From NCBI GenBank assembly GCA_029268285.1, contig JAJUGG010000004.1, forward strand, positions 1 to 32,980: a stretch of DNA of 32,980 bases, read 5' to 3'. The stretch is from Ectothiorhodospiraceae bacterium. GTDB taxonomy: Bacteria > Pseudomonadota > Gammaproteobacteria > Nitrococcales > AK92. The stretch's first letter is position 1. Each line of letters starts with the position of its first letter. Below are positions 15,818 to 32,827 of the stretch, in pieces. The position numbers were made by a program, and so were the translations under genes. The notes under the pieces were generated by a model that saw only the letters and a program-made list of their open reading frames with translations, had not been told where the DNA came from and ran no database searches.

Positions 15818-15872
15818 CGATCGGTATGTGGCTATCGCCGCGCCGGGTAGAACAAGAAATAAGGAGGAGTCC

Positions 15873-16097: not shown

Positions 16098-16182
16098 CAC
16101 GTCTGGGGATCCCGACGACGGCCGGAGCTGTTTGGAGGCTGTCCCGATCCTGGTTTCTTCCCGGAAGATGGAGAAGAGGGAC

Positions 16183-19100
16183 ATGAAGCTTACCCGTAAA
16201 ACCCCTAAGACCGGCGTGACGACCGGCCGCGATGGCGCCGCCAGCGAGCGATTCGGCCTGCTCGGCGCTGCCATAGATCGACGTACCTTCCTCAAACGCT
16301 CCGGCCTTGGCGCCGGCGCCGCGGCGCTTGCCGGCTCTCTGCCGTTGACGATGATGCGCCGCGCCGAGGCGCAGGATGCAGCCGTGCCGGAAGGCAATGA
16401 CGCACCGGTGGAGGTCAAGCGTACCGTTTGTTCGCACTGCTCGGTCGGTTGCGGTTCCATTGCCTACGTCAAGAACGGCGTCTGGGTCGGACAGGAACCG
16501 GACTTCGAATCACCCATCAACCTCGGCGCCCATTGCGCCAAGGGCGCCGCTCTGCGCGAGCACGGCATCGGCGAGCGGCGCGTCAAGTACCCGATGAAGC
16601 TGGAGAACGGCAGCTGGAAGCGCATCAGCTGGGAGCAGGCCGTCAACGAAATCGGCGATAAGATGCTAAAGATCCGCGAGGAGCACGGCCCCGACGCAGT
16701 GTTCTTCTGCGGCTCGTCCAAAGCCAGCAACGAAGGCTCCTACCTGCAGCGTAAGTTTGCCGCCTTCTGGGGGACTAACAACGTCGATCATCAGGCGCGT
16801 ATCTGTCATTCGACCACCGTGGCCGGTGTAGCCAACACCTGGGGCTACGGCGCCATGACCAACTCCTACAACGACATGCACAACAGCAAGGCCATGCTGT
16901 TCATCGGCAGCAATGCGGCCGAGGCGCATCCCGTGTCCATGCAGCACATCCTGCGCGGCAAGGAGCGCGGCGCGAAGATGATTGTTGCCGATCCGCGCTT
17001 TACCCGCACGGCCGCGCACGCGGATATGCATCTGCCGATCCGACCCGGTACCGACGTCGCTTTCATCTGGGGCCTGCTCTATCACATCTTCGAGAACGGC
17101 TGGGAGGACAAGGAGTACATCCGTAGCCGCGTCTACGGCATGGACAAGGTGCGCGAGGAGGTCAAGCAGTGGACGCCGGAGCGGGTGCAGGATGTCGTCG
17201 GCATCGACGAAGCTACCATGCATGCCGCCGCGAAGATTTTGGCCGAGAATCGCCCGGGCACCCTCGTCTGGTGCATGGGCGGCACTCAGCATCATATCGG
17301 CAACAACAACACGCGCGCCTACTGCGTGCTACAGCTCGCACTGGGCAACGTCGGCGTGCCCGGCGGCGGCGCCAACATCTTCCGCGGCCACGACAACGTG
17401 CAGGGCGCGACCGACGTCGGCCCGAACTCGCACACATTACCGGGCTATTACGGCTTGGCCGAAGGGGCCTGGAAGCACTGGGCGCGGGTCTGGGATGTCG
17501 ATTACGAGTGGTTGCGCAGTCGTTTCGATACCGAGCGCCAGTACGACGCCGGCGGCGGCAAGATGGCGTACACGATGAATATCGAGGGCATACCGGTCTC
17601 ACGCTGGATCGACGGTGTGTTGGAAGACCCGAAAAACCTCTCCCAGCGCAGCAACATTCACGCAGTGTTCTTCCAAGGCCACGCCGTGAACAGCCAGAGC
17701 CGCGGTGTGGAGATGCAGAAGGCCATCGATGCGCTCGATCTCGTCGTGATTTCCGACCCGTACCCAACGGTGCTGGCGGTAATGGGCAACCGCAAGGACA
17801 ACACCTACTTGCTGCCGACCTGCACGCAGTTCGAAACCCACGGCTCGGTGACGGCTTCCAACCGCTCAATACAGTGGCGCGAGCAGGTGATCGAGCCGCT
17901 GTTCGAATCCAAGCCGGACCACGAGATCCTGTACCTGTTCGCCAAGAAGTTCGGCTTTGCCGACGAGATGTTCAAAAACATCAGCATCGAGAACGGCCAG
18001 CCCAGCATCGAAGACACGCTACGGGAGATCAACCGTGGGACCTGGACCATCGGCTATACCGGACAGTCGCCGGAGCGGCTAAAACTGCACGCTAAGCACC
18101 GCGGCACCTTCAACACGACTACCTTGCGTGCCGAAGGCGGCCCATGCGACGGCGACTACTACGGCCTGCCCTGGCCGTGCTGGGGTACGCCGGAGATGAA
18201 GCACCCGGGCACCCCTATCCTCTACGACACCAGTAAGCCGGTAGCGGAGGGCGGCCTTAACTTCCGCGCTCGCTTCGGTGTCGAGCACGAGGGCGAGACG
18301 CTGCTCGCCGAAGGCTCCTGGAGCAAGGGCGCTGAGATTGAGGACGGCTATCCCGAGTTCACCTTCGGCATGCTGCGCCAGCTCGGCTGGGCCAAGGATC
18401 TCACCCGTGAGGAACTACAAGCCGTGGGCTACACGGCAGGCGTGGTCAAATCCAAGGATTCGGTGGCCGAGGGCGACGAGGCCGCCTTGCGTCAGGCGTA
18501 CGAAAAGGGTCAGCTGGATGCGGTGAACTGGAAGACCGACCTCTCCGGCGGCATCCAGCGTGTGGCGATCGCCCATGGCTGCGCGCCCTTTGGCAACGCC
18601 AAGGCGCGAGCCGAAGTCTGGGAGTTCCCGGATCCGATCCCGGTACACCGCGAGCCGCTGTATACACCGCGTCACGATTTGGTGGCGGCCTATCCCACCT
18701 ACGAAGATCGCAAAGCAATCTACCGGCTGCCTACGCGCTACGCCTCGTTGCAGAAGACCGACTACTCGAAGAACTATCCCTTGGTGTTCACCAGTGGCCG
18801 CCTTACCGAATACGAAGGCGGCGGTGAGGAGACGCGCTCCAATCGCTGGTTGGCCGAACTGCAGCCGGACATGTTCGTCGAAATTCATCCCGCCGACGCC
18901 AACGACCGTGGTATTCGCGACGGCCAGGAAGTCTGGCTGGAGGGACCGCCGCCGAACAACGGCCGCATTCTGGTCAAGGCCATGGTAACGCCGCGCGTGA
19001 TGCGCGGAGTGGTATGGACGCCGTTCCACTTCGGCGGCTGGTTCCAGGGCGAGGACCTGGAGGCGAAGTATCCGGAAGGTACAGCGCCGCTGGCCCGCGG

Positions 19101-19194
19101 TGAGGCCTGCAACACCGCGACCACCTACGGCTACGATCCGGTGACTCAGATGCAGGAGACGAAATCCACGCTGTGTCAGATCACGGCGGCCTGA
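16183..19194 (+). CDS. fdhA: Formate dehydrogenase catalytic subunit (Mo/W bis-MGD), Cys type
   Basis: This enzyme oxidises formate to CO2 in the periplasm. It has 1003 residues. A Tat signal (DRRTFLKRSG at 32-41) is followed by a [4Fe-4S] site with Cys83, Cys86, Cys90 and Cys118. The metal ligand is Cys208 in QARICHSTTVAG, followed by His209; the codon is TGT, not TGA, so no selenocysteine is needed. The bis-MGD domains follow, with NNNTRAYCVLQLALGNVG and, near the end, the molybdopterin dinucleotide-binding domain (YPLVFTSGRLTEYEGGG). Start at 16183 fits AGAGGG upstream; the open frame to 15961 overlaps the previous gene. Tungsten is suggested by the Tup transporter but not proven. Confidence 0.97.
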   Translation: MKLTRKTPKTGVTTGRDGAASERFGLLGAAIDRRTFLKRSGLGAGAAALAGSLPLTMMRRAEAQDAAVPEGNDAPVEVKRTVCSHCSVGCGSIAYVKNGVWVGQEPDFESPINLGAHCAKGAALREHGIGERRVKYPMKLENGSWKRISWEQAVNEIGDKMLKIREEHGPDAVFFCGSSKASNEGSYLQRKFAAFWGTNNVDHQARICHSTTVAGVANTWGYGAMTNSYNDMHNSKAMLFIGSNAAEAHPVSMQHILRGKERGAKMIVADPRFTRTAAHADMHLPIRPGTDVAFIWGLLYHIFENGWEDKEYIRSRVYGMDKVREEVKQWTPERVQDVVGIDEATMHAAAKILAENRPGTLVWCMGGTQHHIGNNNTRAYCVLQLALGNVGVPGGGANIFRGHDNVQGATDVGPNSHTLPGYYGLAEGAWKHWARVWDVDYEWLRSRFDTERQYDAGGGKMAYTMNIEGIPVSRWIDGVLEDPKNLSQRSNIHAVFFQGHAVNSQSRGVEMQKAIDALDLVVISDPYPTVLAVMGNRKDNTYLLPTCTQFETHGSVTASNRSIQWREQVIEPLFESKPDHEILYLFAKKFGFADEMFKNISIENGQPSIEDTLREINRGTWTIGYTGQSPERLKLHAKHRGTFNTTTLRAEGGPCDGDYYGLPWPCWGTPEMKHPGTPILYDTSKPVAEGGLNFRARFGVEHEGETLLAEGSWSKGAEIEDGYPEFTFGMLRQLGWAKDLTREELQAVGYTAGVVKSKDSVAEGDEAALRQAYEKGQLDAVNWKTDLSGGIQRVAIAHGCAPFGNAKARAEVWEFPDPIPVHREPLYTPRHDLVAAYPTYEDRKAIYRLPTRYASLQKTDYSKNYPLVFTSGRLTEYEGGGEETRSNRWLAELQPDMFVEIHPADANDRGIRDGQEVWLEGPPPNNGRILVKAMVTPRVMRGVVWTPFHFGGWFQGEDLEAKYPEGTAPLARGEACNTATTYGYDPVTQMQETKSTLCQITAA

Positions 19195-19252
19195 GATCCG
19201 CGCGAGGCGCCAACGCCTTGCGCGTCCGTGACGAATAACGAGAGGAAGAACA

Positions 19253-19843
19253 ATGGCGAGGATGAAGTTTCTATGTGATGCCGAGCGCTGCATTGAGTGC
19301 AACTCCTGCGTCACCGCCTGCAAGAACGCCAACGAGGTGCCCTGGGGCGTGAACCGCCGCCGCGTCGTCACCCTCAACGACGGCATGCCGGGGGAGAAGT
19401 CCATCTCCGTGGCCTGCATGCACTGCAGCGACGCGCCCTGTGCCGCGGTATGCCCGGTGGACTGCTTTTACACCACCGACGATGGCATCGTCCTGCACGA
19501 CAAGGATCTCTGCATCGGCTGCGGCTACTGCTCTTACGCCTGTCCCTTCGGCGCACCGCAGTACCCGCAGCAGGAAGCTTTCGGCGTGCGCGGCAAGATG
19601 GATAAATGCACCTTCTGCGCCGGCGGGCCCGAAGCCGACAACAGCCCAGCGGAATTCGAGAAGTACGGCGCTAACCGTATCGCCCAAGGCAAGCTGCCGG
19701 CCTGTGCCGAGATGTGCTCGACCAAAGCCTTGCTCGCCGGTGACGGCGATATGATCTCGGCCGTCTATCGCGAGCGCGTGCTCAACCGCAGCGGTCGGCC
19801 GCAGACCTGGGGTTGGGACCGGGCTTACGGTTCGTCCATTTAA
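19253..19843 (+). CDS. fdhB: Formate dehydrogenase iron-sulfur subunit
   Basis: This is the four-cluster electron-transfer subunit, 196 residues. Cys motifs are CIECNSCVTAC (13-23), CMHCSDAPCAAVCPVDC, CIGCGYCSYACPFGAP, and the split pair CTFC with CAEMC further on, the usual FdhB/DmsB-like arrangement. No C-terminal membrane helix is seen, unlike E. coli FdnH, so anchoring must come from FdhC. There is no signal peptide, so export is probably with FdhA by Tat in a hitch-hiker mode. GAGGAAG precedes the ATG. It lies between fdhA and a small lipoprotein gene. Confidence 0.96.
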   Translation: MARMKFLCDAERCIECNSCVTACKNANEVPWGVNRRRVVTLNDGMPGEKSISVACMHCSDAPCAAVCPVDCFYTTDDGIVLHDKDLCIGCGYCSYACPFGAPQYPQQEAFGVRGKMDKCTFCAGGPEADNSPAEFEKYGANRIAQGKLPACAEMCSTKALLAGDGDMISAVYRERVLNRSGRPQTWGWDRAYGSSI

Positions 19844-19856
19844 GGAGATGCGTTCC

Positions 19857-20054
19857 ATGGCGCGCTGTCACGCAATGCTGATGATCGCGGCACTGGGGCT
19901 CTTGCTGGCGGGCTGTACCGAATCGGACGCTGTTGTGCTGAGCGAGCCCGGTGTCTACAAGGGCGCCGAGGATCCCCTGCTCAAGGCCACAGCCGAGGGC
20001 GAGTTGCACGCTGACCTGGAGCAACGCTTCAACGCGATACAGACCGACCGATGA
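19857..20054 (+). CDS. Small lipoprotein of the formate dehydrogenase operon
   Basis: This protein of about 65 residues has a lipoprotein signal: a short basic start, a hydrophobic core (MLMIAALGLLLAG) and lipobox LAGC. The mature part is only about 46 residues and includes PGVYKGAEDPLLKATAEGELHADLEQRFNAIQTDR. I take the ATG at 19857, with TAAGGAG 9 nt upstream; an ATG at 19848 is too close to that site. It begins 13 nt after fdhB. Its role is unknown; tethering or assembly of the FDH complex is plausible from its position. Similar small genes occur between fdhB and fdhC in related operons, from memory. Confidence 0.8.
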   Translation: MARCHAMLMIAALGLLLAGCTESDAVVLSEPGVYKGAEDPLLKATAEGELHADLEQRFNAIQTDR

Positions 20055-20133
20055 GCGTGCGTGAGGCTCCGAAAGGAGCAAGCCACGGCGCCTGGAGACG
20101 AGCCGATCGATCGCCGAAGGCGGAGGAGTCGAC

Positions 20134-21174
20134 ATGGCTGAAACGAGAAGTCGTATGACGGGCCGCAGAAGGCGGTCGATGCTTTGGAGCTTCGCAGCCA
20201 TCCTGGCGCTGGCGGTATTGGCGCCGTTCGGGGGCTACGTCTACGTCGGCCTGCAGGAGGCGCAGGCGCAAGAGGAGCAGACTGTCAATCCGCGCTCCGA
20301 GTACTGGCGCGAGGTGCGGCGTGGCGCCGAAGGCTATACCAGCGTTGCCAATCCGGAGGGTGGCGTCCTCATCAACGGCGAGGGCAATAACTGGCGGCAG
20401 CTGCGCAATGGCGTCGTCGCGACCTATACGCCTTGGCTGCTGGCGGTGGCGCTCGGCGGTATTGCGTTGATGTGGTTGTTCAAGGGCGCGCACAAGCCGG
20501 AAGAGCCGGACTCGGGGCGCATGGTGCAGCGCTGGTCCCTCTGGAGTCGCGTATTGCATTGGGTGGTGGCAACGCTGTTCATTGTCATGGCCTTTACCGG
20601 CACCAGCCTGTTATTCGGACGCGCCGTGCTGATTCCCTGGCTCGGCCATGAAGGCTTTGCAGCCTATGCCGCCTATGCCATCTCCATGCATAACTACATC
20701 GGGCCATTCTTCAGCGTCGGCATCCTGCTCATGATTCTGACCTGGATCAGAGACAACCTGCCGCGCGCGGCCGATCTGCAGTGGCTAAAGCGAGGCGGCG
20801 GCCTGCTCGGCGGCAAGCAGCCGCCTTCGGGTAAGTTCAACGCCGGCGAGAAACTCTGGTTCTGGTTCATCGCTATATTCGGCACCATCGCCTGCGTGAC
20901 CGGGCTGGTGCTGGACTTCCCGAATCTGGTGCAGAGTCGGGAAACCATGCAAATGGCGAATCTCGTGCACGGCATTACAACCATGCTCTGGATCAGCTTC
21001 TTCTTAGGGCACGTGTACATGGGCACCGTCGGTACCGAGGGCGCCTTGTCAGGCATGATCAGCGGCAACGTCAGCGAGAACTGGGCCAGGCATCACCATG
21101 CGCTGTGGTATGAAGAGGTCAAAGACCAGGAAGCCCCGGTGCGCAAAGTGCCGACTTCGCCGCAGCGAACTTGA
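20134..21174 (+). CDS. fdhC: Formate dehydrogenase cytochrome b subunit (gamma)
   Basis: This is the membrane subunit that takes electrons from FdhB and reduces quinone. It has 346 residues. It starts with a hydrophobic segment (about 16-38) followed by a periplasmic loop of about 60 residues. A further helix at about 95-112 precedes the four-helix cytochrome b core (about 134-160, 178-210, 244-265 and 280-305). Candidate heme ligands are His in RVLHW, SMHNY, NLVHG and FLGHVYMG. The end motif GMISGNVSENWARHHHALWYEE is typical of this family. GGAGGAG precedes the ATG. It closes the operon. Confidence 0.94.
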   Translation: MAETRSRMTGRRRRSMLWSFAAILALAVLAPFGGYVYVGLQEAQAQEEQTVNPRSEYWREVRRGAEGYTSVANPEGGVLINGEGNNWRQLRNGVVATYTPWLLAVALGGIALMWLFKGAHKPEEPDSGRMVQRWSLWSRVLHWVVATLFIVMAFTGTSLLFGRAVLIPWLGHEGFAAYAAYAISMHNYIGPFFSVGILLMILTWIRDNLPRAADLQWLKRGGGLLGGKQPPSGKFNAGEKLWFWFIAIFGTIACVTGLVLDFPNLVQSRETMQMANLVHGITTMLWISFFLGHVYMGTVGTEGALSGMISGNVSENWARHHHALWYEEVKDQEAPVRKVPTSPQRT

Positions 21175-21265
21175 AAGGCTTGGCATGAGGTGCGGATGAT
21201 CGCGGAGGGATATCAGCGGTTTTCCGTGGCTGAGCGTCGCCGGTCGCCTTGACCACAAAGAGTGA

Positions 21266-21327
21266 CGCCTCGCGGCGAGGCGCGCCGTCCCTGCGGGACG
21301 TGGTGTCTTCGGCACTTTTCGGTGCCG
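21266..21327. terminator. Three tandem perfect hairpins between convergent fdhC and moaA
   Basis: Three stems follow each other: CGCCTCG-CGG-CGAGGCG (21266-21282), CGTCCC-TGC-GGGACG (21286-21300), and CGGCAC-TTTTCG-GTGCCG (21310-21327). They fill the spacer between two converging operons. There is no long U-tract on either strand, so a strong intrinsic terminator is not certain; a bidirectional stop or mRNA-protecting 3' structure is likely. Confidence 0.5.
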
Positions 21328-21341
21328 TACGCGAGGCGGAA

Positions 21342-22412
21342 TCAGCCGCCAAGGGTATGCATGCCGGCCGCGCGCTGTACGTAGCCCGCCGACTCGACAA
21401 AGCCCTTGCCCTTGCGCCAGATCGCTTCTCGAATGATTTGCTCGAGCTCACCGTCGCTTGCGCCTTCACGCAAAGGCTCGCGCAGCGCCATGCTGACGGG
21501 GGAGAAAAGGCAGGGATAGATATCGCCGGTGGCGGTGATGCGCACCCGGTCGCAGCTGCTGCAAAATGGCTTAGAGATCGTCGAGATGACGCCGAGGCGG
21601 TAGCGGCCATCGAGGAGGTAATAGGTCGCCGGCTCACGCGTGCGCGGCAGCGCCTCGATGGCGAAGCGTCGTCGCAGGCGCTCGATGATTTCGGCTTCCG
21701 GCACCACGCGTTGTGGGTTCCAGCCGCCGTTGCCGTCTAGCGGCATGAACTCGATGAAGCGCAGGGAAACGTTCTGCTGGTAAGCCCATTCCGCCAGCGG
21801 CACGATTTCCTGCTCGTTCTGGTCGCGGATGACCACCGCATTGAGCTTGACGGGCAGTTCGGCGTCGCGAGCGGCGAGAATGCCGTCCAGCACCGGCTCC
21901 AGGGCGCCGTGCGTCATGTGCTCGAACAGCTCGGCGTCGAGCGCATCGATGCTGACGTTGATGTCGTCGAGGCCGGCGGCTTTCAGCGCCGCGGCGTGGC
22001 GAGCCAACAGCGTGCCGTTGCTGGTCATGGAGATTCGTTCCAGCCCCTGCGCCCGCAGCGGCTGCAAAGACGCCACGAAATGCTCGATGTTCTTGCGCAA
22101 CAGCGGCTCGCCGCCGGTAATCCGGATACGGCGCAGGCCCAGCTCGGTCACGAACAGCCGACACAGGCGGAGCAGCTCCTCGAAGCTGAGGATCTCTTCC
22201 CGCGGCAGCCACTGCGGGTCTTCCGGCATGCAGTAGTGGCAGCGGAAGTTGCAGCGATCCGTGACCGAGATGCGCAGCTTGTGCTTGCTGCGACCGAAAC
22301 GGTCCTCCAGCGGGCCCTGCGGGGCAGGGCCTTCGCGCTTGTTGCCGCGGTCCGACAAAGGCGCTCCCGGCAGCGGGCTGCTCATTGCGGCTTCCTTCTC
22401 GGGCTTGGTCAT
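21342..22412 (-). CDS. moaA: GTP 3',8-cyclase MoaA (radical SAM)
   Basis: MoaA starts molybdopterin synthesis by converting GTP to 3',8-cyclo-GTP. It has 356 residues. The radical SAM [4Fe-4S] site is C54-x3-C58-x2-C61 (CNFRCHYC). ITGGEPLLRKNI binds SAM, and the second cluster site is CSSC plus a later Cys (KPFCSSCDRVRITATGDIYPC). The protein ends in the expected Gly-Gly. The ATG at 22412 overlaps the moaB stop (ATGA); Met10 at 22385 has a better Shine-Dalgarno (AAGGA), so either may be used. The first 35 residues are a proline-rich extension not seen in E. coli MoaA. MoaC is not in the window. Confidence 0.96.
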   Translation of the reverse strand: MTKPEKEAAMSSPLPGAPLSDRGNKREGPAPQGPLEDRFGRSKHKLRISVTDRCNFRCHYCMPEDPQWLPREEILSFEELLRLCRLFVTELGLRRIRITGGEPLLRKNIEHFVASLQPLRAQGLERISMTSNGTLLARHAAALKAAGLDDINVSIDALDAELFEHMTHGALEPVLDGILAARDAELPVKLNAVVIRDQNEQEIVPLAEWAYQQNVSLRFIEFMPLDGNGGWNPQRVVPEAEIIERLRRRFAIEALPRTREPATYYLLDGRYRLGVISTISKPFCSSCDRVRITATGDIYPCLFSPVSMALREPLREGASDGELEQIIREAIWRKGKGFVESAGYVQRAAGMHTLGG

Positions 22413-22939
22413 CCGGCCTCGTGCACGGTCGTAGGTGAAAATACGATCTCTGCCAAGTTACAGGGCCGGTGCCGAATATCCAACTGTTCCTTGAGTATCT
22501 TGTCCCAGGCCGTGCGGCAGGCTCCGGTGGAGCCGGGCAGGCAGATGATGACGGTCTTGTTGGCGAGCCCTGCCAGGGCGCGCGACTGTATGGTCGATGT
22601 GCCGATTTCCTGGTAAGACAGGCTGCGGAAGAGTTCTCCGAAACCGTCGATGCGCTTGTCGAGCAATGGCAGCACGGCTTCCGGCGTTTGGTCGCGCGGT
22701 GCAAAGCCGGTGCCGCCGGTGATCAGCACGCCCTGTACTTCCGGGGCGGCGATCCAAGCCGACACCACTGCGCGAATGGCGTAAATATCGTCGCGCACCA
22801 AGTCGCGCGCTATCAGTCGATGGCCGGCGCCTTGTAGCCGCTCCACCAAGGTATCGCCGGACCTGTCTTCCGCCGGCGAGCGGCTGTCCGATACCGTTAG
22901 TACCGCAAGCCCCAGGGCTTGAAATTCTCGAGTCGTCAT
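22409..22939 (-). CDS. moaB: Molybdopterin adenylyltransferase-like MoaB
   Basis: MoaB belongs to the MogA/MoaB fold that adenylates molybdopterin before metal insertion by MoeA. It has 176 residues, with AVLTVSDSRS at the start, VLITGGTGFAPRDQTPEAV, and the end region NKTVIICLPGSTGACRTAWDKIL. The ATG at 22939 is preceded by AGGAAG; an open frame to 23071 lacks protein-like sequence. It is the first gene of the moaB-moaA pair. The same fold occurs in MoeA's central domain encoded at 6230-7495. Confidence 0.95.
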   Translation of the reverse strand: MTTREFQALGLAVLTVSDSRSPAEDRSGDTLVERLQGAGHRLIARDLVRDDIYAIRAVVSAWIAAPEVQGVLITGGTGFAPRDQTPEAVLPLLDKRIDGFGELFRSLSYQEIGTSTIQSRALAGLANKTVIICLPGSTGACRTAWDKILKEQLDIRHRPCNLAEIVFSPTTVHEAG

Positions 22940-23609
22940 GGCGTTTCTTCCTGTCTCCTTCGCTCCGCTTTCCGAAGCATGCCGACGCCGGAGCGTATCG
23001 GCGACGCTAACAAGAAGTCTAGCTGCTTTGAGCGCGCGGTGAGCGCGGTTAGTCCGCGTTTGACCCGGCAACCCTGCTAAGTGGCCGGGGGGAATCAGCG
23101 AAACAATCTAATGGCCGCTTTTCTCGCTTAATGGGGACTTGGGTATTCCCTGGATCATCCGCATCTTCAGATACAGTGGTTGACGCGGAGACAACGCGTC
23201 GCCCGGTTTCGTAATAACGACCAATATTGCTTCACGCGACAATCAAGAAGTTAGTGGCGCCAGTACCGTGTCTGCATTTTCCCGGCGCTTTTTCATGGTG
23301 TGCGTCGCGCACCTTCCAGGGCAACTAAGCTGCCCCACAGGCGGCGTGCCGGCTCGGTTACGGTCATGGATTCCAATGTTTCATTCGGTGTAATGCGCGA
23401 TAGACCGGAATTCGCGTAGATCCTGAAGAGTAACGCGGTAGTGACAGGAAAAGGCAGCGTGCCGAGGAGAGTTACGCCTTAGCGCGAGGGTTCGGACGGC
23501 CTTCGCCGAGTATTCTCGGTAGTCCCCTCGGCTGCGAGCGAGACGCTAACCGGCATGTTTTGCCAGACAGTGGGTCAGCCTAGGCCGCATAGGGCTTCAA
23601 GGAGGGAAT
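22940..23609. other. 670-bp noncoding leader between moaB and the polysaccharide cluster
   Basis: No credible gene is seen on either strand. It must hold promoters for moaB (leftward) and the co-polymerase gene (rightward). Structured spots are a stem CCCGGC/GCCGGG with a 14-nt loop (23064-23089), an imperfect palindrome at 23297-23313, and CCGAG-TATT-CTCGG at 23506-23519. AAGGAGG precedes the ATG at 23610. A TTGACG at 23180 has no well-spaced -10. A long 5' leader before polysaccharide genes would suit riboswitch or antitermination control, but I recognise no known RNA family. Confidence 0.5.
23297..23313. repeat. Imperfect REP-like palindrome
   Basis: GGTGTGCGTCGCGCACC has eight paired positions on each side with one T-G wobble. 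It resembles the perfect palindrome at 11650-11666 in its GGTG...GCACC ends. Two copies with the same ends in noncoding spacers hint at a dispersed repeat family, but two is too few to be sure. Confidence 0.3.
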
Positions 23610-25898
23610 ATGGCTGGCATCGATAGCCAGATAAGAGGCGCGTATGAAGCTGCAGTTAAGAACCATACACTCGATTTGCGCCATTACTGGAGGGTAGCGG
23701 CTAGGCATAAATGGCGCGTTCTCTTCATGATGGGTGTAGGCGCAGTGATCGGGCTCGTCCTGGCGCTTGCGCTGCCGAGGTACTATGAAGCGAGCACCAC
23801 GCTGGTGATCGAGAGGCCGAGGTTGGAGGCCTCGCCCGTCGAGGCGGCCTATCGCTTCGATGTACAAACCAACGAATACTTCCTGACCCAGTTCGAGATT
23901 CTCAAATCCGACGATCTGGCCTTCGCCGTTTACCAGGATCTGGGCGTGGCCCAGCACCCTTCCTTTCAGGAAGACTTGGCGAGCCCCACGCGGGCAATGA
24001 AGTCCTTCGTGCGCGGGCTGATTCCCTGGGGGCAGAGCGGCGATGAGGTCGGCGCGCGGCAGCATTTCGAGCACTTCAAGGAAGCGTTGTCCATCACGCC
24101 CCTGACCAATACCCAAGCGGTCAGAATTAGTTTCCGGAGCCGGGATCCAGAGTTCTCCGCAGCGGTCGCAAACGGCCTGGCGCAACAGTACCTGCGGACG
24201 GGTTCCGAGGTGCTGGCCAAGATGGCCGGCGAGGAAGGCGTTGCGCTGCAGTCGGAAGCCCAGGCGGCGCGCGAGCGTCTGCAACAGAGCGAGCAGGCGC
24301 TGCAAGCGTTTCGTGAGCGCGAGGGCCTGGTCGACGTCGCCAGCGGCGAGGGGCTAGCCGAGCGTGAGTTGGGGCGGGCGTTGGAGCAGTTGCAGGTCGC
24401 CGAGCAGCGCTATGCGGAAATCAAGGCAGTCTATGAGCAAGTAGAGCACCTCGTCGGAGGTGCGAGTGCGGCGGCTTATCTCGACTCGCCACTGCTGGCG
24501 GGCGATGCGCAGTTGCAGGCTGCGCAGACAAACTACGAAACGGCGCGACGGGAGTATGAGTCGCTCGCCTCGATGTTCGTCGAGGGGCATCCCGATATCG
24601 CTGCCGCGCAGGTGCGCCTCGGTATCGCCCGGGACGCACTGGTCGAGCAGGCCAGGACGCGCGTGCTCGCTATCCGTGATCAATACCAGCAGGCCGAGCG
24701 AGTAGTGGCCGACGCACGCGCGCGGCTGGATGCGGTCAAGGCCGATTTGCAGAACCTGAACCGCAATCAGTTCCAATTGGTCGAGCTGGAGCGGCAGGTC
24801 GAGGCCAACCGCGCTCAGTACGAGGCCTTGATGGCGCAGGCCAGCGCACTCGGGGCGATGCAGAATCTGGCGCCGAGCTCGGCCCGTGTCGTCGATACGG
24901 CGTGGCCGCCGCTCGTGCCCACGGGGCCGGGCACGATCGCCATGATGTTGCTGATGTCGTTGCTGAGCGGCCTACTCACTTTGTTATGGATTCTCGGCCG
25001 AGATGCGTTCGACGACACGCTCAAGACCCCGACCGACGTCCGGCAGCGCCTCGGCCTGCCACTGTTGGGCTATGTGCCGAAGACCTTGGGCAACGAAGAA
25101 GCGCCGTTCCCGCAGTCGGTAATCGCCGAGCCCTACAGCTTCGGCGCCGACGCAGTCTACCGGCTCTCGGCAGCGGTGCAGCAGGCGGCGGGCAAGGCCT
25201 CCGACAGCGTGCTGGTCGTCACATCCCCGCTGCCTGGCGAGGGTACCACGACAGTGGCTTTGAACCTGGCGCTGGCGCAGGCCGAAGTCTGCCGTACGCT
25301 GCTTATAGAAGGCGGCTTCCTGCAGCCCCAGTTGAGCCGCCTGCTTGCCGGCGCATCGATCGACTGCGGACTGGTCGAAGTCCTCGAAGACGGTATGCCC
25401 CTGGAGCGCGCTCTGTTCGCAGTGCCCGATTCCAGCCTGGATCTGTTGCCGCTCTCGCATCGCCCGGACAACCCGCAGAAGCTGATGGCTCTGCCTCAGC
25501 TCCAACAACTGATGGAGGAACTCCGGCGACGTTACGATCGCATCATCATCGACTGTGGACCGGTGCATGCGGTATCGGACGCCATTCTTTGGGGCAGCAA
25601 GGCGGATGGCGTGATCGTGGTGACCGAGGCAGGCGGCACGGACGCTTCGCTCGTCGAAAGCGCTATCGATAAGCTGGCTGCTTGTGGAAAACCGGTGATG
25701 GGTGTGGTGCTCAATCAGGCGGGCCCGGAGCACAGCCCCGATTTCGCGGATTACTTCAGCAACTACTACAGCAAGGCGGAAGAGGAGGCGGCCGCCGGCC
25801 GCAAGCTGCTGCCGGTGGACGCAACCGACGCCGAACAGGAGCGGAAGCCTCCTGTGCTTGCGCCGGTACGCGCGCTGAGACCGGCATCGGATGATTGA
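23610..25898 (+). CDS. Wzc-like polysaccharide co-polymerase with degenerate tyrosine-kinase domain
   Basis: This inner-membrane protein controls chain length and export of a polysaccharide. It has 762 residues. A Wzz domain comes first, with membrane segment 1 at about 37-58. A coiled-coil periplasmic region follows (about 190-400), then the proline-rich end (WPPLVPTGPG) and membrane segment 2 at about 436-458. The C-terminal part has the BY-kinase fold, but key residues are changed. Walker A reads GEGTTT, with Thr546 in place of the catalytic Lys. Walker A' reads LLIEGG (E567, G569) instead of LLIDAD. Walker B IIID (D648) is kept. The tyrosine cluster is short (DYFSNYYS). It is therefore probably a pseudokinase. 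AAGGAGG precedes the ATG. Confidence 0.9.
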   Translation: MAGIDSQIRGAYEAAVKNHTLDLRHYWRVAARHKWRVLFMMGVGAVIGLVLALALPRYYEASTTLVIERPRLEASPVEAAYRFDVQTNEYFLTQFEILKSDDLAFAVYQDLGVAQHPSFQEDLASPTRAMKSFVRGLIPWGQSGDEVGARQHFEHFKEALSITPLTNTQAVRISFRSRDPEFSAAVANGLAQQYLRTGSEVLAKMAGEEGVALQSEAQAARERLQQSEQALQAFREREGLVDVASGEGLAERELGRALEQLQVAEQRYAEIKAVYEQVEHLVGGASAAAYLDSPLLAGDAQLQAAQTNYETARREYESLASMFVEGHPDIAAAQVRLGIARDALVEQARTRVLAIRDQYQQAERVVADARARLDAVKADLQNLNRNQFQLVELERQVEANRAQYEALMAQASALGAMQNLAPSSARVVDTAWPPLVPTGPGTIAMMLLMSLLSGLLTLLWILGRDAFDDTLKTPTDVRQRLGLPLLGYVPKTLGNEEAPFPQSVIAEPYSFGADAVYRLSAAVQQAAGKASDSVLVVTSPLPGEGTTTVALNLALAQAEVCRTLLIEGGFLQPQLSRLLAGASIDCGLVEVLEDGMPLERALFAVPDSSLDLLPLSHRPDNPQKLMALPQLQQLMEELRRRYDRIIIDCGPVHAVSDAILWGSKADGVIVVTEAGGTDASLVESAIDKLAACGKPVMGVVLNQAGPEHSPDFADYFSNYYSKAEEEAAAGRKLLPVDATDAEQERKPPVLAPVRALRPASDD

Positions 25899-25923
25899 TG
25901 GCGGGCCTGGATAGTCGTTGTTC

Positions 25924-27096
25924 ATGAGTCAGTCGATCCGGATCGCGGTGCTGATCAACTCCCTGGGCGGCGGCGGTGCCGAGCGTGTCGCCTCGCTGCT
26001 GGCGCCGGAACTCGCCCGGCGCCAGCAGCCCAAGGGGTGGCTCGTCAGCTTCGTGACGCTCGACAGTTGCGAGGAATGTTATCGCCTGCCCGACGGATTC
26101 GAGGTTGTGCGCCTCAAGGCCGACGGTTCTTATTGGGATTCCTTGCGCAGATTGCGCTCGCACTTGCGCACCGGGCGCTACGATGCGGTTCTGAGCTTTC
26201 TGCCGCGTGCCAACTGCTTGAATGTGCTCCTCAAGGGGATGAGCGGCCACGCCGCCGTGATCAGCGAGCGCGGCGACCCCAATCGCCTGCTGGGTAGCGG
26301 CGTCGGCGGCTGGATGAAGCGTTTGCTGGTGCGGTTGCTGTATCCACGCGCCGATAGCGTTGTGGTCGTGGCGCAGGCGCTGGGAAGGCGCCTGCAGTCG
26401 GAATATGGGGTACCTGTCGAGCGCTTGTCGACGATCTACAACCCCGTTTATACCGAGCAGCGGTCCGTACCCGCCGCCGGGACCGCGCGCCCGGACCTGC
26501 GCGGCAGGCCGTTCGTGGTTGCAGTCGGTCGCTTGGTTCCGGAAAAGGGCTTCGATCTGTTGATCGAGGCGTTTAGCCGCAGTCGCTATGGCGGCAGCTT
26601 GGTCATCCTCGGGGAGGGGCCCGAGCGCGCGGCGCTCGAGGCAATGGCCGCTCGCTTTGATATCGCCGAGCGGGTGCGGCTGCCTGGCTTCGTGGCCGAT
26701 CCGGCTGTTTACCTCGAGCAGGCCGATGCCTTCGTGCTCTCGTCGCGCGCCGAAGGCTTTCCCAATGCCCTGGTCGAAGCGATGTCGGTTGGCTGCCCGG
26801 TGCTGGCGGCTAATTGCGAGTTCGGGCCCGCCGAGATTCTGCAGGGCGTAGAGCGATTGGAGCTGAGCGGCCTCTATGAGGCCAGCGGCGGGCTACTGGT
26901 GCCGCCGGAAGACGTTGACCAGCTTGCCGCCGGGATCGACGCCGTCACCCGCTCGGAGCGACGGGAGTTCTGGTCGGAGCGCGCTAGGCGCCGGGCAGCC
27001 GGCTTTACGCTGGCTGCGGCGGCGGCGCAGTACGCCGAGGTGCTCGAAAAAAGCATCGCCGAGGGGCTAGCGCAGCCTGGAGGGCGCTGCGCATGA
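25924..27096 (+). CDS. Glycosyltransferase family 4
   Basis: This is a cytoplasmic sugar transferase of 390 residues with a GT-B fold. The N-terminal half has the glycine-rich start NSLGGGGAERVASLL. The C-terminal half has VAVGRLVPEKGFDLLIEAF and the nucleotide-sugar motif SSRAEGFPNALVEAM, with the E-x7-E pair. I chose ATG 25924 over a TTG at 25918; neither has a strong Shine-Dalgarno. It starts 25 nt after the co-polymerase gene and overlaps the flippase gene by 4 nt. Sugar donor and acceptor are unknown. Confidence 0.92.
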   Translation: MSQSIRIAVLINSLGGGGAERVASLLAPELARRQQPKGWLVSFVTLDSCEECYRLPDGFEVVRLKADGSYWDSLRRLRSHLRTGRYDAVLSFLPRANCLNVLLKGMSGHAAVISERGDPNRLLGSGVGGWMKRLLVRLLYPRADSVVVVAQALGRRLQSEYGVPVERLSTIYNPVYTEQRSVPAAGTARPDLRGRPFVVAVGRLVPEKGFDLLIEAFSRSRYGGSLVILGEGPERAALEAMAARFDIAERVRLPGFVADPAVYLEQADAFVLSSRAEGFPNALVEAMSVGCPVLAANCEFGPAEILQGVERLELSGLYEASGGLLVPPEDVDQLAAGIDAVTRSERREFWSERARRRAAGFTLAAAAAQYAEVLEKSIAEGLAQPGGRCA

Positions 27097-28427
27097 GTGC
27101 CAAGAGCGCCGACTTGGAATCGGCTCCTCGCTCAATGCTGCGCGATTCGCTGGCGGCCGTCGGCACCAAGGTGTTCGTGCTTGCGCTGACGGTCGTCAGT
27201 GTGGTCATACAGGCCCGCGCCCTGGGTCCCGAAGGACGGGGGCATCTGGCGGCCTTGATCGTGCTGGCCGAGATTCTGGTGCCGTTCGCAGGCTGCGGTG
27301 CGAACCATTCCATGGCGTACTACGTTGGTCGGGCCAAGTTCGAGGTTGGCCGCCTATACGGCTCACTGCTCTTCGTACTCGTGCAGAGCAGCCTGATCGC
27401 CGCCGCCGTTGTCGCCTGGATGCATTACCAATCGCCGCTGCCGTTCACGACGATCATGATCGTCGTGACGGCCATCAGCGTTCCCATCAGCGTGTTCGTC
27501 AACGCGCTGAAGGGCGTGGCCTTGGGGCGGCATCGAATCGCCGAGTTCAATCGTATTTTCTGGCTCGAGAAGCTGGTCATGGTCGGGGGGCTGCTGAGCC
27601 TATGGGCAGCCGGGGCGCTGACGATTACCACGGCGCTGCTGGTCATGGTCGCTGCCAGCTGCGTGGTGCTGGTGACCGGCATGCAGGTGGTAAGGCCGTT
27701 CCGTTGGCCGTGGCGGGTAGATCGCCGGGTGGCGGGGCAGTTGCTCAGCAAAGGCATGGTGCTTGCCGTCACCATGTTTCTCGTCGAGCTGCTGCTGAAA
27801 ATCGATATTTACCTTTTGAGCTGGCTCAGCAGCGGGGATGTCACCGGACACTACGCCGTTGCCGTGCAAGCGGGCGGCATGCTCTGGCAGATTCCGCTCG
27901 GGCTCGGGGTGGTGGTGCTGGCGCGCAGCGCCAATCGCAGCGGGAGCAGGGATGGCTGGGAGCTCGCGCTCGCGCGCGCAGTACGAGTCTCCCTGTGGGG
28001 CGTCGTCGCCGCCGGAGGCGTGGCCGCGCTCGCCGCACCCCTCGTGTTGCCGTTGCTGCTCGGCGCGGAGTTCGCACCATCCGTGCTGCTCTTCCAACTG
28101 CTCGTACCCGGCATTGTCTTACTGACGGTATTCCAGCTGCTCTACATGAACCTGGCCGGCGAGGGGCGGGTGTGGGTGCCCTTGTTGATTCTGCTTCCCT
28201 GCGTAACCGCGAAAACCGCCTTGGCGCTGTGGGTGATTCCGCGCTTCGGTGCAGAGGGGGCCGCCGTCGTCTCCTCGCTCGCATACGCTGCCGCGGCCTT
28301 GGGCATGGCGGCGTACTTCAGTCGCCGTAGCGGGCTCGAGGTGGCCGATCTGGTCTTGTTGAAGCGGCTCGACTTCGAACTCCTGTGGAGTCTGGCTCGC
28401 AACTTCAATCGAGGAGAGACGCGATGA
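27093..28427 (+). CDS. Oligosaccharide flippase (Wzx-like)
   Basis: This polytopic membrane protein of 444 residues has about 11-12 hydrophobic segments and no soluble domain, fitting the MOP/Wzx family that moves lipid-linked repeat units across the inner membrane. The early RALGPEGRGHLAALIVLAEI and SMAYYVGR motifs are typical. GGAGG precedes the ATG, which overlaps the previous stop. It is followed by an overlapping Wzy-like gene, so this is a Wzx/Wzy-type pathway. Substrate unknown. Confidence 0.9.
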   Translation: MSAKSADLESAPRSMLRDSLAAVGTKVFVLALTVVSVVIQARALGPEGRGHLAALIVLAEILVPFAGCGANHSMAYYVGRAKFEVGRLYGSLLFVLVQSSLIAAAVVAWMHYQSPLPFTTIMIVVTAISVPISVFVNALKGVALGRHRIAEFNRIFWLEKLVMVGGLLSLWAAGALTITTALLVMVAASCVVLVTGMQVVRPFRWPWRVDRRVAGQLLSKGMVLAVTMFLVELLLKIDIYLLSWLSSGDVTGHYAVAVQAGGMLWQIPLGLGVVVLARSANRSGSRDGWELALARAVRVSLWGVVAAGGVAALAAPLVLPLLLGAEFAPSVLLFQLLVPGIVLLTVFQLLYMNLAGEGRVWVPLLILLPCVTAKTALALWVIPRFGAEGAAVVSSLAYAAAALGMAAYFSRRSGLEVADLVLLKRLDFELLWSLARNFNRGETR

Positions 28428-29767
28428 GCACTTCGGCCTGGACCGTGGTCATTCTCGTCAGCGCCGTCCCGAGCCTGATGGTTCTGCTCAAGGAGCTCCG
28501 GCACCGCGGTGCGTCCACGGTGCTTTGGTTCGTGGCACTCGCTTTCTATCTGCGCTTTCTGGCCGCCGCGCTGCACGAATACACCTACGCGCCGCTGCTC
28601 GGCCCGCTCAGCCTCAATGCCATGCTCAGCGTCGCCATGCTGGCGGTGGGCATCATCGTCATCGATCGTCGCCTGCTACTCCTTAAGACGCTCTGGCCCG
28701 TCTACCTGATCCTGAGTCTTGCCCTCGGCAGCGCCTTGCTCAATGGCGCCTTGGCGGTCGGCACGGAAACGATCACCAAGTGGCTGTTGTTGCTGGTGCT
28801 GATGGTTGCTTTGGTCCAAGCGCTGCTGGAGCGGCCGCTAGCCGAGGTGCTCGAGGTGCTCATGAGGGCGTTCGCCCTACCCGTCATTCTGCTGCTCGCG
28901 TCGCTGGCCTTCGGGTATGCGAAGGCCAACGAGATCGACGGCTCGATCAGCTACATCGGCGGTTACAGCCATGAGGCGGCGTTCTCCATCATTCTGGCCA
29001 CCCTGCTGGGGCTCACGCTGTTGCGCTACTGGCAGGAGAGAGAGTACGTCGACGGTGCCTGCAAGACGCTGCCGCTGCTGTTGTTCGTCTTGCTGTTACT
29101 GGTCAATTACCGAACCACGGTACTGGCCATGCTGCTACCGGTCGGGCTCTACCTGTTCGACCGGTTCGTGGTGCGCGCCTCGCTGCCTAAACAGTTGGCG
29201 CTGTGCCTGGTGGCGGGGCTTGCCGTGGTGATCTTGCCGCTGGACCTGGCCGCGCAACTGGCGCGTTTTCAGGATCTCCCGGCCGTGTTCGCTGGTTATG
29301 AGGAATTGGTTCAGCGCCCCGAGTACTACACGGACTGGCAGCGGCAATACCTATCGTCGCGCGCGTATCTGTGGAGCCAGTACATCACCGCCTGGAGCGA
29401 TGCTTCTGCCGTGCACCAACTGGCGGGCCTGGGGCCGGATACCTGGAAAGGGCGGTTTGTGACCTACGCGCACAATACCTTCGTCTCTTTTCTCTACGAG
29501 ATGGGCGTGCTCGGCGTGATCGGGCTGGCGGTGTTCTTCGCGGCGCTGTTGCTCGCGGCCCGGCGCACGTTGATGTTGCTGTTCCTGGCGTGGGGGTTCG
29601 TCATCCTGAATCTGGGAACGCTGCCGTTGTGGCAGGTAGAGGGCATTTTCTTTGCCAGCGTGATTGCGGCGGTGGCGTACAGCGGGCGCCTGCTGGCTGC
29701 GTCGACTCGCCCCAGTGCGGCGGACGAGCTGCGGCCGTCCGACCTGGGCCTGATCAGGAGTTCCTAG
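28424..29767 (+). CDS. O-antigen polymerase/ligase-like membrane protein (Wzy-like)
   Basis: This protein of 447 residues has about 11-12 membrane segments and a large loop at about 285-345. The loop ends in VTYAHNTFVSFLYEMGVLGVIGL, the HN-x-F...E-x-G motif shared by O-antigen ligases and Wzy polymerases. The true start is the ATG at 28424, with GAGGAGA upstream; it overlaps the flippase stop by 4 nt. With Wzx and the co-polymerase it most likely polymerises the repeat unit. Ligase activity is the main alternative. Confidence 0.88.
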   Translation: MSTSAWTVVILVSAVPSLMVLLKELRHRGASTVLWFVALAFYLRFLAAALHEYTYAPLLGPLSLNAMLSVAMLAVGIIVIDRRLLLLKTLWPVYLILSLALGSALLNGALAVGTETITKWLLLLVLMVALVQALLERPLAEVLEVLMRAFALPVILLLASLAFGYAKANEIDGSISYIGGYSHEAAFSIILATLLGLTLLRYWQEREYVDGACKTLPLLLFVLLLLVNYRTTVLAMLLPVGLYLFDRFVVRASLPKQLALCLVAGLAVVILPLDLAAQLARFQDLPAVFAGYEELVQRPEYYTDWQRQYLSSRAYLWSQYITAWSDASAVHQLAGLGPDTWKGRFVTYAHNTFVSFLYEMGVLGVIGLAVFFAALLLAARRTLMLLFLAWGFVILNLGTLPLWQVEGIFFASVIAAVAYSGRLLAASTRPSAADELRPSDLGLIRSS

Positions 29768-29816: not shown

Positions 29817-30980
29817 GTGGAAGAAGTGGTCTCTCCAAAGCTGCGCGTGCTGATGTTGGGTTTACGCGGGGTGCCGGGGGTGCAGGGCGGCATCGAAAAG
29901 CACGTCGAGCAACTCTGCCCGCTGTTGGTGGAGCGCGGCTGCGAGGTGGAAGTGGTGGCGCGGGCACCTTACCAGCCTGCGGCGCATGGCAGTAATTGGC
30001 GCGGCGTGCGCTTGCTGCCTCTGTGGGCGCCGCGCTCGAAAAATCTGGAAACCATCGTGCACACCGCTTTGGGCGTTTTATACGCGGGAGTCCGGCGCCC
30101 GGACGTGCTTCACATCCATGCCGTGGGGCCGGCCTTAATGGTGCCCTTGGCGCGAGCCCTGGGGCTGAAAGTGGTCGTGACGCATCATGGGCCGGATTAT
30201 GAACGGCCTAAGTTCGGTCGTCTGGCGCGCTGGGCGTTGCGCTGTGGCGAGTCCTGGGGAATGCGCTGGGCAAGCGCGCGCATTGCGGTTTCGCGCACCA
30301 TTCAGGAGCGGGTCCGGGAGCGGTACGGCTGCGAGGTTCACCGCATCCCGAACGGTGTTCGCGTGCCGCCGGTATCGCAGCAAACCGATGCGCTGGAACC
30401 GTTCGGCCTCCAACCGGGCCGCTATGTGCTGATGGTGGGGCGGCTCGACTCCGGCAAACGGCAGCTGGATCTGATCCGGGCGTTCAACCAAGCCAGGCTC
30501 AAAGGCTGGAAGCTGGCACTGGTGGGCGGTGCCGAGTACAGCGACAGCTATACCGAGGCCATCGAGGCGGCGGCCCACGCTCCCGGCATTGTCATGACCG
30601 GCTTTCAGGGCGGGCAGACGCTGGAGCAGCTCTTCCGCCACGCCGGCATGTTCGTCTTTCCGTCGTCGCATGAAGGGCTGCCCATTGCCCTTCTGGAGGC
30701 GCTGAGCTACGGCCTGCGCGTTATCGCCAGCGACATTCCTGCGAATCTCGAGATCGGTCTTCCGGCACAACACTACTTCCCGCTCGGCAACGTAGAAGTG
30801 CTGGCCGAACGCATGCGTGAGTTCGCCGAGCGGCCGCTCACGGAGGGCGAGCGCGAGGAGTATCGCCAGTGGGTTGCGTCGCGCTACGACTGGAATGACA
30901 TCGCACTGGAAACCTGTGCGGTGTACGAGGGACTCACTAAGAAGAGCCTGACGGCCGGCAAGCGGATCGCGACGAGTTAA
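29817..30980 (+). CDS. Glycosyltransferase family 4 (second copy)
   Basis: This is a GT-B glycosyltransferase of 387 residues starting at GTG, preceded by AAGGAGG. It has LMLGLRGVPGVQGGIEKHVEQL (about 12-33), VLMVGRLDSGKRQLDLIRAF and SSHEGLPIALLEAL with the E-x7-E pair. The N-terminal glycine-rich loop differs from that of the GT at 25924, so they probably use different sugars. The cluster thus has two transferases in view, and more may lie beyond the window. Exact linkage unknown. Confidence 0.92.
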   Translation: MEEVVSPKLRVLMLGLRGVPGVQGGIEKHVEQLCPLLVERGCEVEVVARAPYQPAAHGSNWRGVRLLPLWAPRSKNLETIVHTALGVLYAGVRRPDVLHIHAVGPALMVPLARALGLKVVVTHHGPDYERPKFGRLARWALRCGESWGMRWASARIAVSRTIQERVRERYGCEVHRIPNGVRVPPVSQQTDALEPFGLQPGRYVLMVGRLDSGKRQLDLIRAFNQARLKGWKLALVGGAEYSDSYTEAIEAAAHAPGIVMTGFQGGQTLEQLFRHAGMFVFPSSHEGLPIALLEALSYGLRVIASDIPANLEIGLPAQHYFPLGNVEVLAERMREFAERPLTEGEREEYRQWVASRYDWNDIALETCAVYEGLTKKSLTAGKRIATS

Positions 30981-31075
30981 TCACGGCCTTGGGCTCGGAA
31001 GAGACAGGATATCGGCGACTGGATAGGAGCCGGTCGCGGCCGGCTTTAAGGAAGTGGCGAGGAGCAGCGAGACCG

Positions 31076-32827
31076 ATGCCTGAGTTGAATGCCGCACTTG
31101 TGGTCGAGAGCGAGATGTTGCCGTTCTGGCAGTATCGTGCCTTGGAGCGCTTACTCGAGGACGGGCACGTTCGGGTGCGGTTGGTTCTGCTGCTAACGCG
31201 CGATCAACGACTGCGTCGAAGCTGGAGGGCGCGGGGCTGGGAGTTCTGCGCCCGACTCGTGGGAGGGCGCGTCGCTGAGCGGTCGATGTTGGAGTTGCTA
31301 CGCGGTGTGCCGGTTATGCAGCCGAACGATTTGCAGCATGCCGCTCTGGATGAGCTCGATTTCGTGCTCAAGCTCACGCCGCACACGCAAGCGCTTCCCG
31401 AGGCACTGGCGCAGGCTAGGTTCGGCGTCTGGAGCCTGAGCTTCAGCGGCGAAGGCGTGCCCGGGGTGCCGCCCGGCGCGCTGGAGACCTATCATGCTTG
31501 TGAGACCTCGATGGTCGCCCTGGTCAGCAGCCAAGCGCCCGCCGGCGGGCGAGATGTGCTGCGCTGGGCGCGACAGAGAACCCGGCCGGGCTGCTTCAGG
31601 AACTCGCGCGAGCTGTTGCTGCGCGCAAGCGAGTTGCCCCGTCTGGCGGTGCTCGATCTGGTCCACGGCACCACGGCGAGCCGGTGCCCGGAAGAGCCAG
31701 CAAGGCTCGAGCCGCCCCGGCGCTTTCCACTTAGCCGTATCCTCGCCCGCTCGGCATTCAGATTTCTGCGCCGAGGCATAGAGCTCACGCTATTCGATGA
31801 GCATTGGTCGATTCTGATATTCCGTAATCAGGGCTTTCCTTCCAAGGACTTCTTCCGGCGCGACAATGCCGTAGCCGAGCTGAGATTCCCCTCCTGGGTC
31901 GGCTATGGTGCCGATCCCTTCATCGTGGAAGCCGGCAACAGGCTCTACCTGCTGTTCGAGTACTACGACGCGGGGACCGGGCGTATCGATGCCGCCGTGC
32001 TCGATGAGAGCCTGCGGCTCGTCGATTATGCGGAAGATCTGGCGCCGAGCCGGGCACATCAGTCCTACCCGTTCGTGATGAAGACGTCCCAGGGCTGGCT
32101 CCTGATGCCCGAGGCGGGCGCCTCCGGTGCGGTGCCTTACTACCTGCTCGAGGATCTAGTCGGACCCGTCCGGCAGAGCGGCACGCTGATCGAGGATTTC
32201 GCGGGCGTGGACAACACCATTTGCTTCCATGCCGGCAAGTACTGGATGTTCAACAGCCGTGCTGTGCAGGGCCTGGACCACGAGACCGAGCTGATGCTGT
32301 GGTGGGCGGATGATCCTCGGGGGCCTTGGACGGCTCACCCTGCCAATCCCATTCAGATCGATATTGCCGGCTCGCGTCCCGCCGGGCCGTTATTCACGGA
32401 TGCGCAGGGCGTGCTGTACAGGCCGGCGCAGAACGGCTCGGCCGGTTACGGTGGCGGGCTGGTGTTAAAGCGCGTGGCGGCCTTGGACGAACGTCGCTTC
32501 GAGGAGCAGACGGTGCTCCAGGTGGCGCCGCGGGACGTCGCGCCGGAGGCTATCGGCGTCCATCACTTCTGCGCGTCCGAGCGCTATGTGGCTGTCGACT
32601 ACCGGCTGCGTCGGCTCAAGTCGCGCCTGCTTGCTCGGCTGGTAGGAAAAGCAAAGGGTGAAGATGCCCGCACCCTGGTCGAGGTTCGCAACACGCGCTC
32701 CGGCGGGCCGGGGGAGCCCTTGCGCCCGGCCACGACCGCTCCTGTATTGGCCGCTGCGCGCCATTCGGAGGTCGAGCGCGTGCTCGCGCTCGGGGGGACG
32801 CGATTGCGCCTGCCCAACGCTCAGTAA
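31076..32827 (+). CDS. Formyltransferase-like domain fused to GH43/GINT1-like beta-propeller
   Basis: This protein of about 583 residues has two parts. The first 180 residues resemble a formyltransferase-like fold: VLKLTPHTQALPEALAQARFGVWSLSFSGEGVPGVPPGALETYH matches the pattern of such domains, but no catalytic Asn-His-Asp set is obvious. The second half (about 270-520) is a five-bladed-propeller-like region with YGADPFIVEAGNRLYLLFEYYD, the motif of the domain at the N-terminus of GINT1-type glycosyltransferases. I take the ATG at 31076, with GAGGAG 11 nt upstream; a TTG at 30989 would extend it with unlikely sequence. Glycan modification in the polysaccharide pathway is likely; the reaction is unknown. 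Confidence 0.8.
   Translation: MPELNAALVVESEMLPFWQYRALERLLEDGHVRVRLVLLLTRDQRLRRSWRARGWEFCARLVGGRVAERSMLELLRGVPVMQPNDLQHAALDELDFVLKLTPHTQALPEALAQARFGVWSLSFSGEGVPGVPPGALETYHACETSMVALVSSQAPAGGRDVLRWARQRTRPGCFRNSRELLLRASELPRLAVLDLVHGTTASRCPEEPARLEPPRRFPLSRILARSAFRFLRRGIELTLFDEHWSILIFRNQGFPSKDFFRRDNAVAELRFPSWVGYGADPFIVEAGNRLYLLFEYYDAGTGRIDAAVLDESLRLVDYAEDLAPSRAHQSYPFVMKTSQGWLLMPEAGASGAVPYYLLEDLVGPVRQSGTLIEDFAGVDNTICFHAGKYWMFNSRAVQGLDHETELMLWWADDPRGPWTAHPANPIQIDIAGSRPAGPLFTDAQGVLYRPAQNGSAGYGGGLVLKRVAALDERRFEEQTVLQVAPRDVAPEAIGVHHFCASERYVAVDYRLRRLKSRLLARLVGKAKGEDARTLVEVRNTRSGGPGEPLRPATTAPVLAAARHSEVERVLALGGTRLRLPNAQ

Follow-up and report, generated by a model that had tools for sequence, protein, structure and literature searches.

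In the accepted model of PCP-2 polysaccharide co-polymerases, tyrosines are phosphorylated and dephosphorylated in a cycle that dismantles and rebuilds the octamer. The window (the whole stretch of DNA that was analysed, 32,980 nucleotides in length) carries the gene of a co-polymerase whose BY-kinase domain has an altered active site. This locus raises the question of what the cytoplasmic domain of such a protein does once its own catalysis is lost. A natural PCP-2 architecture working without phosphorylation would reveal which parts of the cycle model are dispensable.

A fused co-polymerase and its Wzx/Wzy cluster

The open reading frame, which has the start and stop given in the first-pass annotation, is intact, with neither an internal stop nor a frameshift, and its product of 762 amino acids combines a Wzz domain, a GNVR domain and a cytoplasmic P-loop domain on a single chain (Table 1), as in PCP-2a proteins of the Wzc/VpsO type. 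The Pfam match of the P-loop domain to AAA_31 is weak and lies under its cut-off, and the nearest NCBIfam family, exopolysaccharide transport TIGR01005 (E=4.5e-60), is likewise matched under the family cut-off. The nearest solved sequence to the kinase domain is that of VpsO (6u1q, E=7e-28). The genomic location is also that of a PCP-2a protein, with Wzx, Wzy and two GT4 genes downstream: the gene heads a nearly gapless run on the same strand, in the order GT4, Wzx, Wzy, GT4 and a GINT1-like gene, the last complete one ahead of the contig end at 32980. No outer-membrane exporter was found between the co-polymerase gene and this contig end.

Table 1. Features of the co-polymerase gene and of the genes downstream of it
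Feature	Position	Strand	Evidence
PCP-2a-type polysaccharide co-polymerase with fused degenerate BY-kinase domain, 762 aa	23610..25898	+	ORF; Wzz, GNVR, weak AAA_31
Wzz chain-length determinant domain, aa 20-111	23667..23942	+	Pfam PF02706, E=1e-9
GNVR domain, aa 387-465	24768..25004	+	Pfam PF13807, E=2.7e-6
ExxRxxR oligomerisation motif site, here D514-A-V-Y517-R-L-S520 (E514D, R517Y, R520S)	25149..25169	+	alignments
BY-kinase-fold (P-loop) domain, aa 531-708	25200..25733	+	VpsO 6u1q match; AF2; structure alignment
Walker A Lys to Thr546 (codon ACC)	25245..25247	+	Lys in every relative compared
Walker A′ site E567-G-G569-F-L571: second Asp to Gly, Arg to Leu	25308..25322	+	alignments
Conserved Gly to Ser616	25455..25457	+	Gly in 42/45 + 73/79 relatives
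Walker B region I645-I-I-D648-C-G-P651	25542..25562	+	Asp648 kept
Reduced tyrosine tail Y715-FSN-Y719-Y720, then Tyr-free 42-residue extension	25752..25769	+	sequence, alignments
GT4 glycosyltransferase	25918..27096	+	PF00534, E=2.6e-32
Wzx-type flippase	27093..28427	+	PF01943, E=1.8e-7
Wzy-type polymerase / O-antigen ligase family	28385..29767	+	PF04932, E=3.5e-8
GT4 glycosyltransferase	29817..30980	+	PF13439, E=1.6e-25
GINT1_N (glucosamine inositolphosphorylceramide transferase 1, N-terminal) region protein	30989..32827	+	PF24793, E=3e-21

The GINT1_N-type protein is here a member of a bacterial polysaccharide cluster. Its nearest matches in the class sample are only 27-35% identical, so that the search through this neighbour gave no matching cluster for comparison. 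The PCP neighbourhoods of the relatives have almost no genes in common with this cluster. Upstream of the co-polymerase gene, the JUMPstart/ops core (GGCGGTAG) was not found nearby, its matches being at chance level, and no match to a sigma-70-like promoter was obtained.

The cluster is preceded by an unrelated block ending in moaA and moaB on the opposite strand. This block (3831-23071, directly upstream) carries formate dehydrogenase genes (FDH3-type beta subunit, gamma subunit), the molybdenum-cofactor genes moeA, mobA-like, ThiF-type, moaA and moaB, and components of ABC transporters. A TrfA-like replication initiator (2687-3634; PF07042, E=3.5e-44) is encoded further upstream, close to a response-regulator gene. 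Initiators of this family are typical of plasmids, and the contig possibly represents a plasmid or a chromid, or carries an integrated element.

Invariant catalytic residues are missing from the kinase domain

The kinase domain was compared with two sets of full-length relatives, about 122 in total: 45 from genome samples, an unbiased set, and 79 from named public genomes, a set partly biased towards Lys since one of its two search patterns includes this residue. The P-loop reads VTSPLPGEGTTTVALNLA. Thr546 at the place of the Walker A Lys had already been pointed out in the first-pass annotation, and the alignments bear it out: Lys is present in all 45 relatives of the unbiased set and in 79/79 of the partly Lys-biased one. 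The same annotation had set LLIEGG against the LLIDAD expected at Walker A′, and here only one part of the claim stood. The motif reads LLIEGGFLQP, and its first residue, Glu, is ordinary, being found in 7/45 and 12/79 relatives. The telling change is, to judge from the alignments, that of the second Asp to Gly at position 569, where Asp occupies every row (45/45 and 79/79, that is 124/124). The Arg at position 571, lost as well, is present in 44/45 and 78/79 relatives (122/124 rows). In the Walker B region, Asp648 is kept, in agreement with the annotation, and position 650 is Gly here versus Pro or Ala in the relatives.

A further loss, absent from the first-pass annotation, concerns the ExxRxxR motif, of which E514 is found in 75/79 and 43/45 relatives, R517 in 70/79 and 30/45, and R520 in 72/79 and 40/45. 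The tyrosine tail is indeed short, as had been stated, with three tyrosines (715, 719 and 720) against a median of 6-7 in the relatives, but this says little, as six Lys-bearing full-length relatives of the 79-row set likewise have three. Taken together, the protein lacks the Lys of GxGK[ST], the DxD with its Arg, and ExxRxxR of an active BY-kinase, and retains the Walker B Asp648.

The genome is a draft of 3.1 Mb in 320 contigs (about 92% complete), and the substitutions could in principle stem from an error of sequencing or assembly, for which the first-pass annotation had singled out positions 25245-25247. Such an error is scarcely credible: the change from Lys to Thr (ACC) by itself needs two base changes, Asp569, Arg571, Gly616 and ExxRxxR are altered too, and overall at least six conserved sites are changed across about 300 bases, in frame and with no stop or frameshift.

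The AlphaFold2 model, made from a 39-row alignment, has a mean pLDDT of 79.9, with values of about 90 across most of the kinase domain. Full-length Wzc came out on top when the model was ranked with Foldseek, and structure alignment (VIA) gave a Z of 34.1 to CapAB (238 residues, rmsd 2.1), of about 33 to full-length Wzc K540M and of 25.4 to VpsO (203 residues, 32% identity). The model thus indicates that the BY-kinase fold is kept, as the annotation had claimed, and that this fold, devoid of its catalytic motifs, is joined to a co-polymerase part, as in a fused PCP-2/BY pseudokinase.

Of the active site, the GEG, the Thr residues that follow Thr546 and the Walker B Asp648 are retained, and the sequence GEGTTT might still bind MgATP in an active ATPase or kinase of a non-canonical kind. 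We consider this highly improbable, as the Lys and, in Walker A′, the second Asp and the Arg are missing simultaneously, and homologues in which the Lys is mutated to Ala or Met show no activity (PMC7485978, PMC8285477). Because the invariant catalytic residues are gone and the homologues need the Lys for autophosphorylation, we strongly infer that catalysis by the kinase domain has been lost.

Divergence of the protein and the possibility of decay

Searches of the order, class and phylum samples yielded no close orthologue, the best matches reaching about 30-32% identity. A scan of the genome contigs with the single protein gave no relative, and the alignment-based scan gave 80, at 24-32% identity. 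The protein forms the longest branch of the family tree (2.41), and its divergence runs along the whole length, beyond the kinase part. The degenerate state is known from this one genome, no orthologue above about 32% identity having been found.

These features invite the explanation that relaxed selection cost the protein its kinase function and that its cytoplasmic domain, or even the entire gene, is in decay, or the cluster disappearing. In a variant of this explanation, the co-polymerase works by its membrane and periplasmic part alone, like the kinase-less PCP-2 proteins. The long branch would be compatible with relaxed selection, ExxRxxR and other conserved residues have been lost too, identity to the clade is lowest in the linker (466-530; 23%, versus 39% between clade members), and the protein is known from one genome only. 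However, the codon-position GC is coding-like over the full gene, including the kinase part, and the reading frame is free of stops and frameshifts. The kinase domain is still 32% identical to the clade and its fold is confidently modelled. Moreover, it keeps 18 of the 24 columns in which at least 85% of 121 relatives agree; the Walker A Lys and, from Walker A′, the second Asp and the Arg are among the six that it has lost.

That the Lys disappeared through divergence alone was ruled out by a control relative (L027), which has lost 10 of these 24 columns, versus six here, and still has the Lys. Because of this control, of the conserved columns that remain and of the coding-like codon-position GC, the loss of the Lys is specific and the gene, as judged by its sequence, no obvious pseudogene. 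We regard decay, including its variant, as unlikely, and the co-polymerase gene as presumably functional.

Other BY-kinase-like proteins of the genome

Two further PCP systems are present in the genome, on contigs C21 (locus L062) and C70 (locus L063). On C21, a stand-alone kinase (L062:9425-10222) with a GEGKT P-loop, the Walker A′ sequence DANLRRP and only one Tyr close to the C-terminus adjoins its own PCP. On C70, a stand-alone kinase-like protein (L063:8756-9631) is encoded in an XrtA/PEP-CTERM cluster; GGGS replaces the Lys-bearing P-loop, the Walker A′ reads DCN and the tyrosine tail is missing. The orthologues of the C70 protein that have a readable P-loop (38-59% identity) are all Lys-less, with Asn for the second Walker A′ Asp (14/14), and none has a Tyr-rich tail (0/14). 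In each of the 14 loci that were checked, the gene is directly preceded by a PCP homologue and followed by an outer-membrane-type homologue. The C70-type family extends to several sampled families of the class (L081-L085, L209-L218). Because the Lys is absent from 14/14 orthologues, its loss in the C70 protein is no accident, and the alignments show a conserved family of stand-alone BY pseudokinases, which perhaps deserves study more than the fused protein does.

The first-pass annotation had proposed that the fused protein is either regulated by another kinase or acts as a structural partner. The former would require that its three tail tyrosines be phosphorylated in trans, for example by the stand-alone C21 kinase, the cycle thus persisting. 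Tyr715, Tyr719 and Tyr720 are still there, the C21 kinase has its GEGKT P-loop, and a search for a cluster-linked Wzb phosphatase returned two LMW-PTPs in the genome. We found no positive support for such a regulation, which is decidedly unlikely. As far as the cluster extends in the window, it contains no kinase gene, the C70 protein is itself Lys-less, and the C21 kinase, besides adjoining its own PCP, has a Walker A′ of the DxN form and no Tyr-rich tail. Both LMW-PTPs are encoded outside EPS clusters, one beside kdsB/lpxK-type genes (C65) and the other among transport genes (C122). In addition, inactive VpsO is not phosphorylated by VpsO in trans (PMC7485978).

Among the stronger matches to the kinase family profile in this genome, at about 92% completeness, no canonical tyrosine-tailed BY-kinase was found. 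It can tentatively be proposed that its three PCP-2-type systems (the fused pseudokinase, which would be a VpsO-clade member without catalysis and ExxRxxR, C70 and C21) all operate without a canonical autophosphorylating BY-kinase. If this is true, polymer length would be controlled entirely without tyrosine phosphorylation. The occurrence of the C70-type family in XrtA-type clusters across the class suggests that phosphorylation-free co-polymerases are possibly common in Gammaproteobacteria.

A proposed scaffold role for the cytoplasmic domain

We conclude that the 762-residue protein is probably a PCP-2a co-polymerase for a surface polysaccharide made by a Wzx/Wzy-dependent pathway, and that its fused BY-kinase has probably turned into a pseudokinase scaffold. 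The idea of a pseudokinase fused to a co-polymerase, put forward in the first-pass annotation, is supported by the lost invariant residues, the predicted fold and the data on Lys mutants of homologues, and the structural-partner role is favoured over the other mode of action proposed there. Presumably, the part in the membrane and periplasm assembles round Wzy and couples polymerisation with export. The cytoplasmic domain would keep its P-loop fold without productive binding or hydrolysis of ATP and without phosphorylation of the tail, and would take on a structural or docking role. A scaffold role of this kind has been proposed for the BY pseudokinases EcpK and HfsB (PMC12004946).

The consequences for assembly can be envisaged from mutants of homologues. 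Autophosphorylation of VpsO breaks up its oligomers and inhibits synthesis; the K551A variant does not autophosphorylate, and VPS production rises in V. cholerae that carries it (PMC7485978). The K540M variant of Wzc lacks phosphorylation and is an octamer (PMC8285477). If the present protein resembles VpsO K551A, the machine would favour the unphosphorylated 'on' state, free of the phosphorylation brake, and its assembly and disassembly, if still cycling, would be controlled without tyrosine autophosphorylation. The cytoplasmic ExxRxxR motif is needed for the oligomerisation of VpsO (PMC7485978). Because this motif is lost here, a ring, if formed, would have to be held together by the membrane and periplasmic part or by new contacts, and the cytoplasmic domain would not necessarily maintain a 'locked ring'. 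A dead active site together with a lost assembly motif, in an otherwise Lys-bearing VpsO-like clade, would offer a natural test of the non-catalytic role of the cytoplasmic domain.

Comparison with known systems

VpsO of Vibrio cholerae, a PCP-2a BY-kinase, has in common with the present protein the architecture, the Wzx/Wzy context and the kinase fold. It autophosphorylates and has K551, the Walker A′ Asp and Arg, and ExxRxxR, whereas the 762-residue protein keeps none of these residues. The match to Wzc of E. coli K30 extends over the full-length fold, including the membrane and periplasmic parts. The K540M mutation of Wzc resembles the natural Lys loss described here, but wild-type Wzc cycles through autophosphorylation of its tyrosine tail, unlike the predicted pseudokinase.

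Inactive BY-kinase domains have been discussed in several other systems. In Staphylococcus aureus, the inactive BY-kinase of CapA1B1 has been considered a pseudokinase (PMC3795738), although this Gram-positive PCP-2b system consists of two proteins and not of a fused chain. EcpK/EpsV of Myxococcus and HfsB/HfsA of Caulobacter belong to Wzx/Wzy pathways with a BY pseudokinase for which a scaffold role has been proposed; there, the pseudokinase is a separate protein, and in EcpK the motifs are wholly absent. Another case is PssP2 of Rhizobium leguminosarum, a fused Wzc-like PCP which has neither Walker motifs nor a tyrosine cluster in its cytoplasmic domain, is not detectably phosphorylated and affects EPS chain length (PMC4182512). 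By its description it is like the protein studied here, but it has 586 amino acids and a much shorter periplasmic domain. Fused PCP-2/BY-pseudokinase variants were also described by Cuthbertson et al., as cited in PMC12004946: SMc01795, BCETI_6000729, Mlr8439 and VV1_2305, from Sinorhizobium, Brucella, Mesorhizobium and Vibrio vulnificus. As far as that account describes them, they combine a transmembrane and periplasmic part with a motif-less kinase-like domain in one polypeptide, as here; compared on the same terms, the 762-residue protein differs in keeping most of the P-loop except the Lys. BY pseudokinases, both stand-alone and fused, are thus already described, and the present protein, likened to them by description, is a new and very diverged case from one genome.
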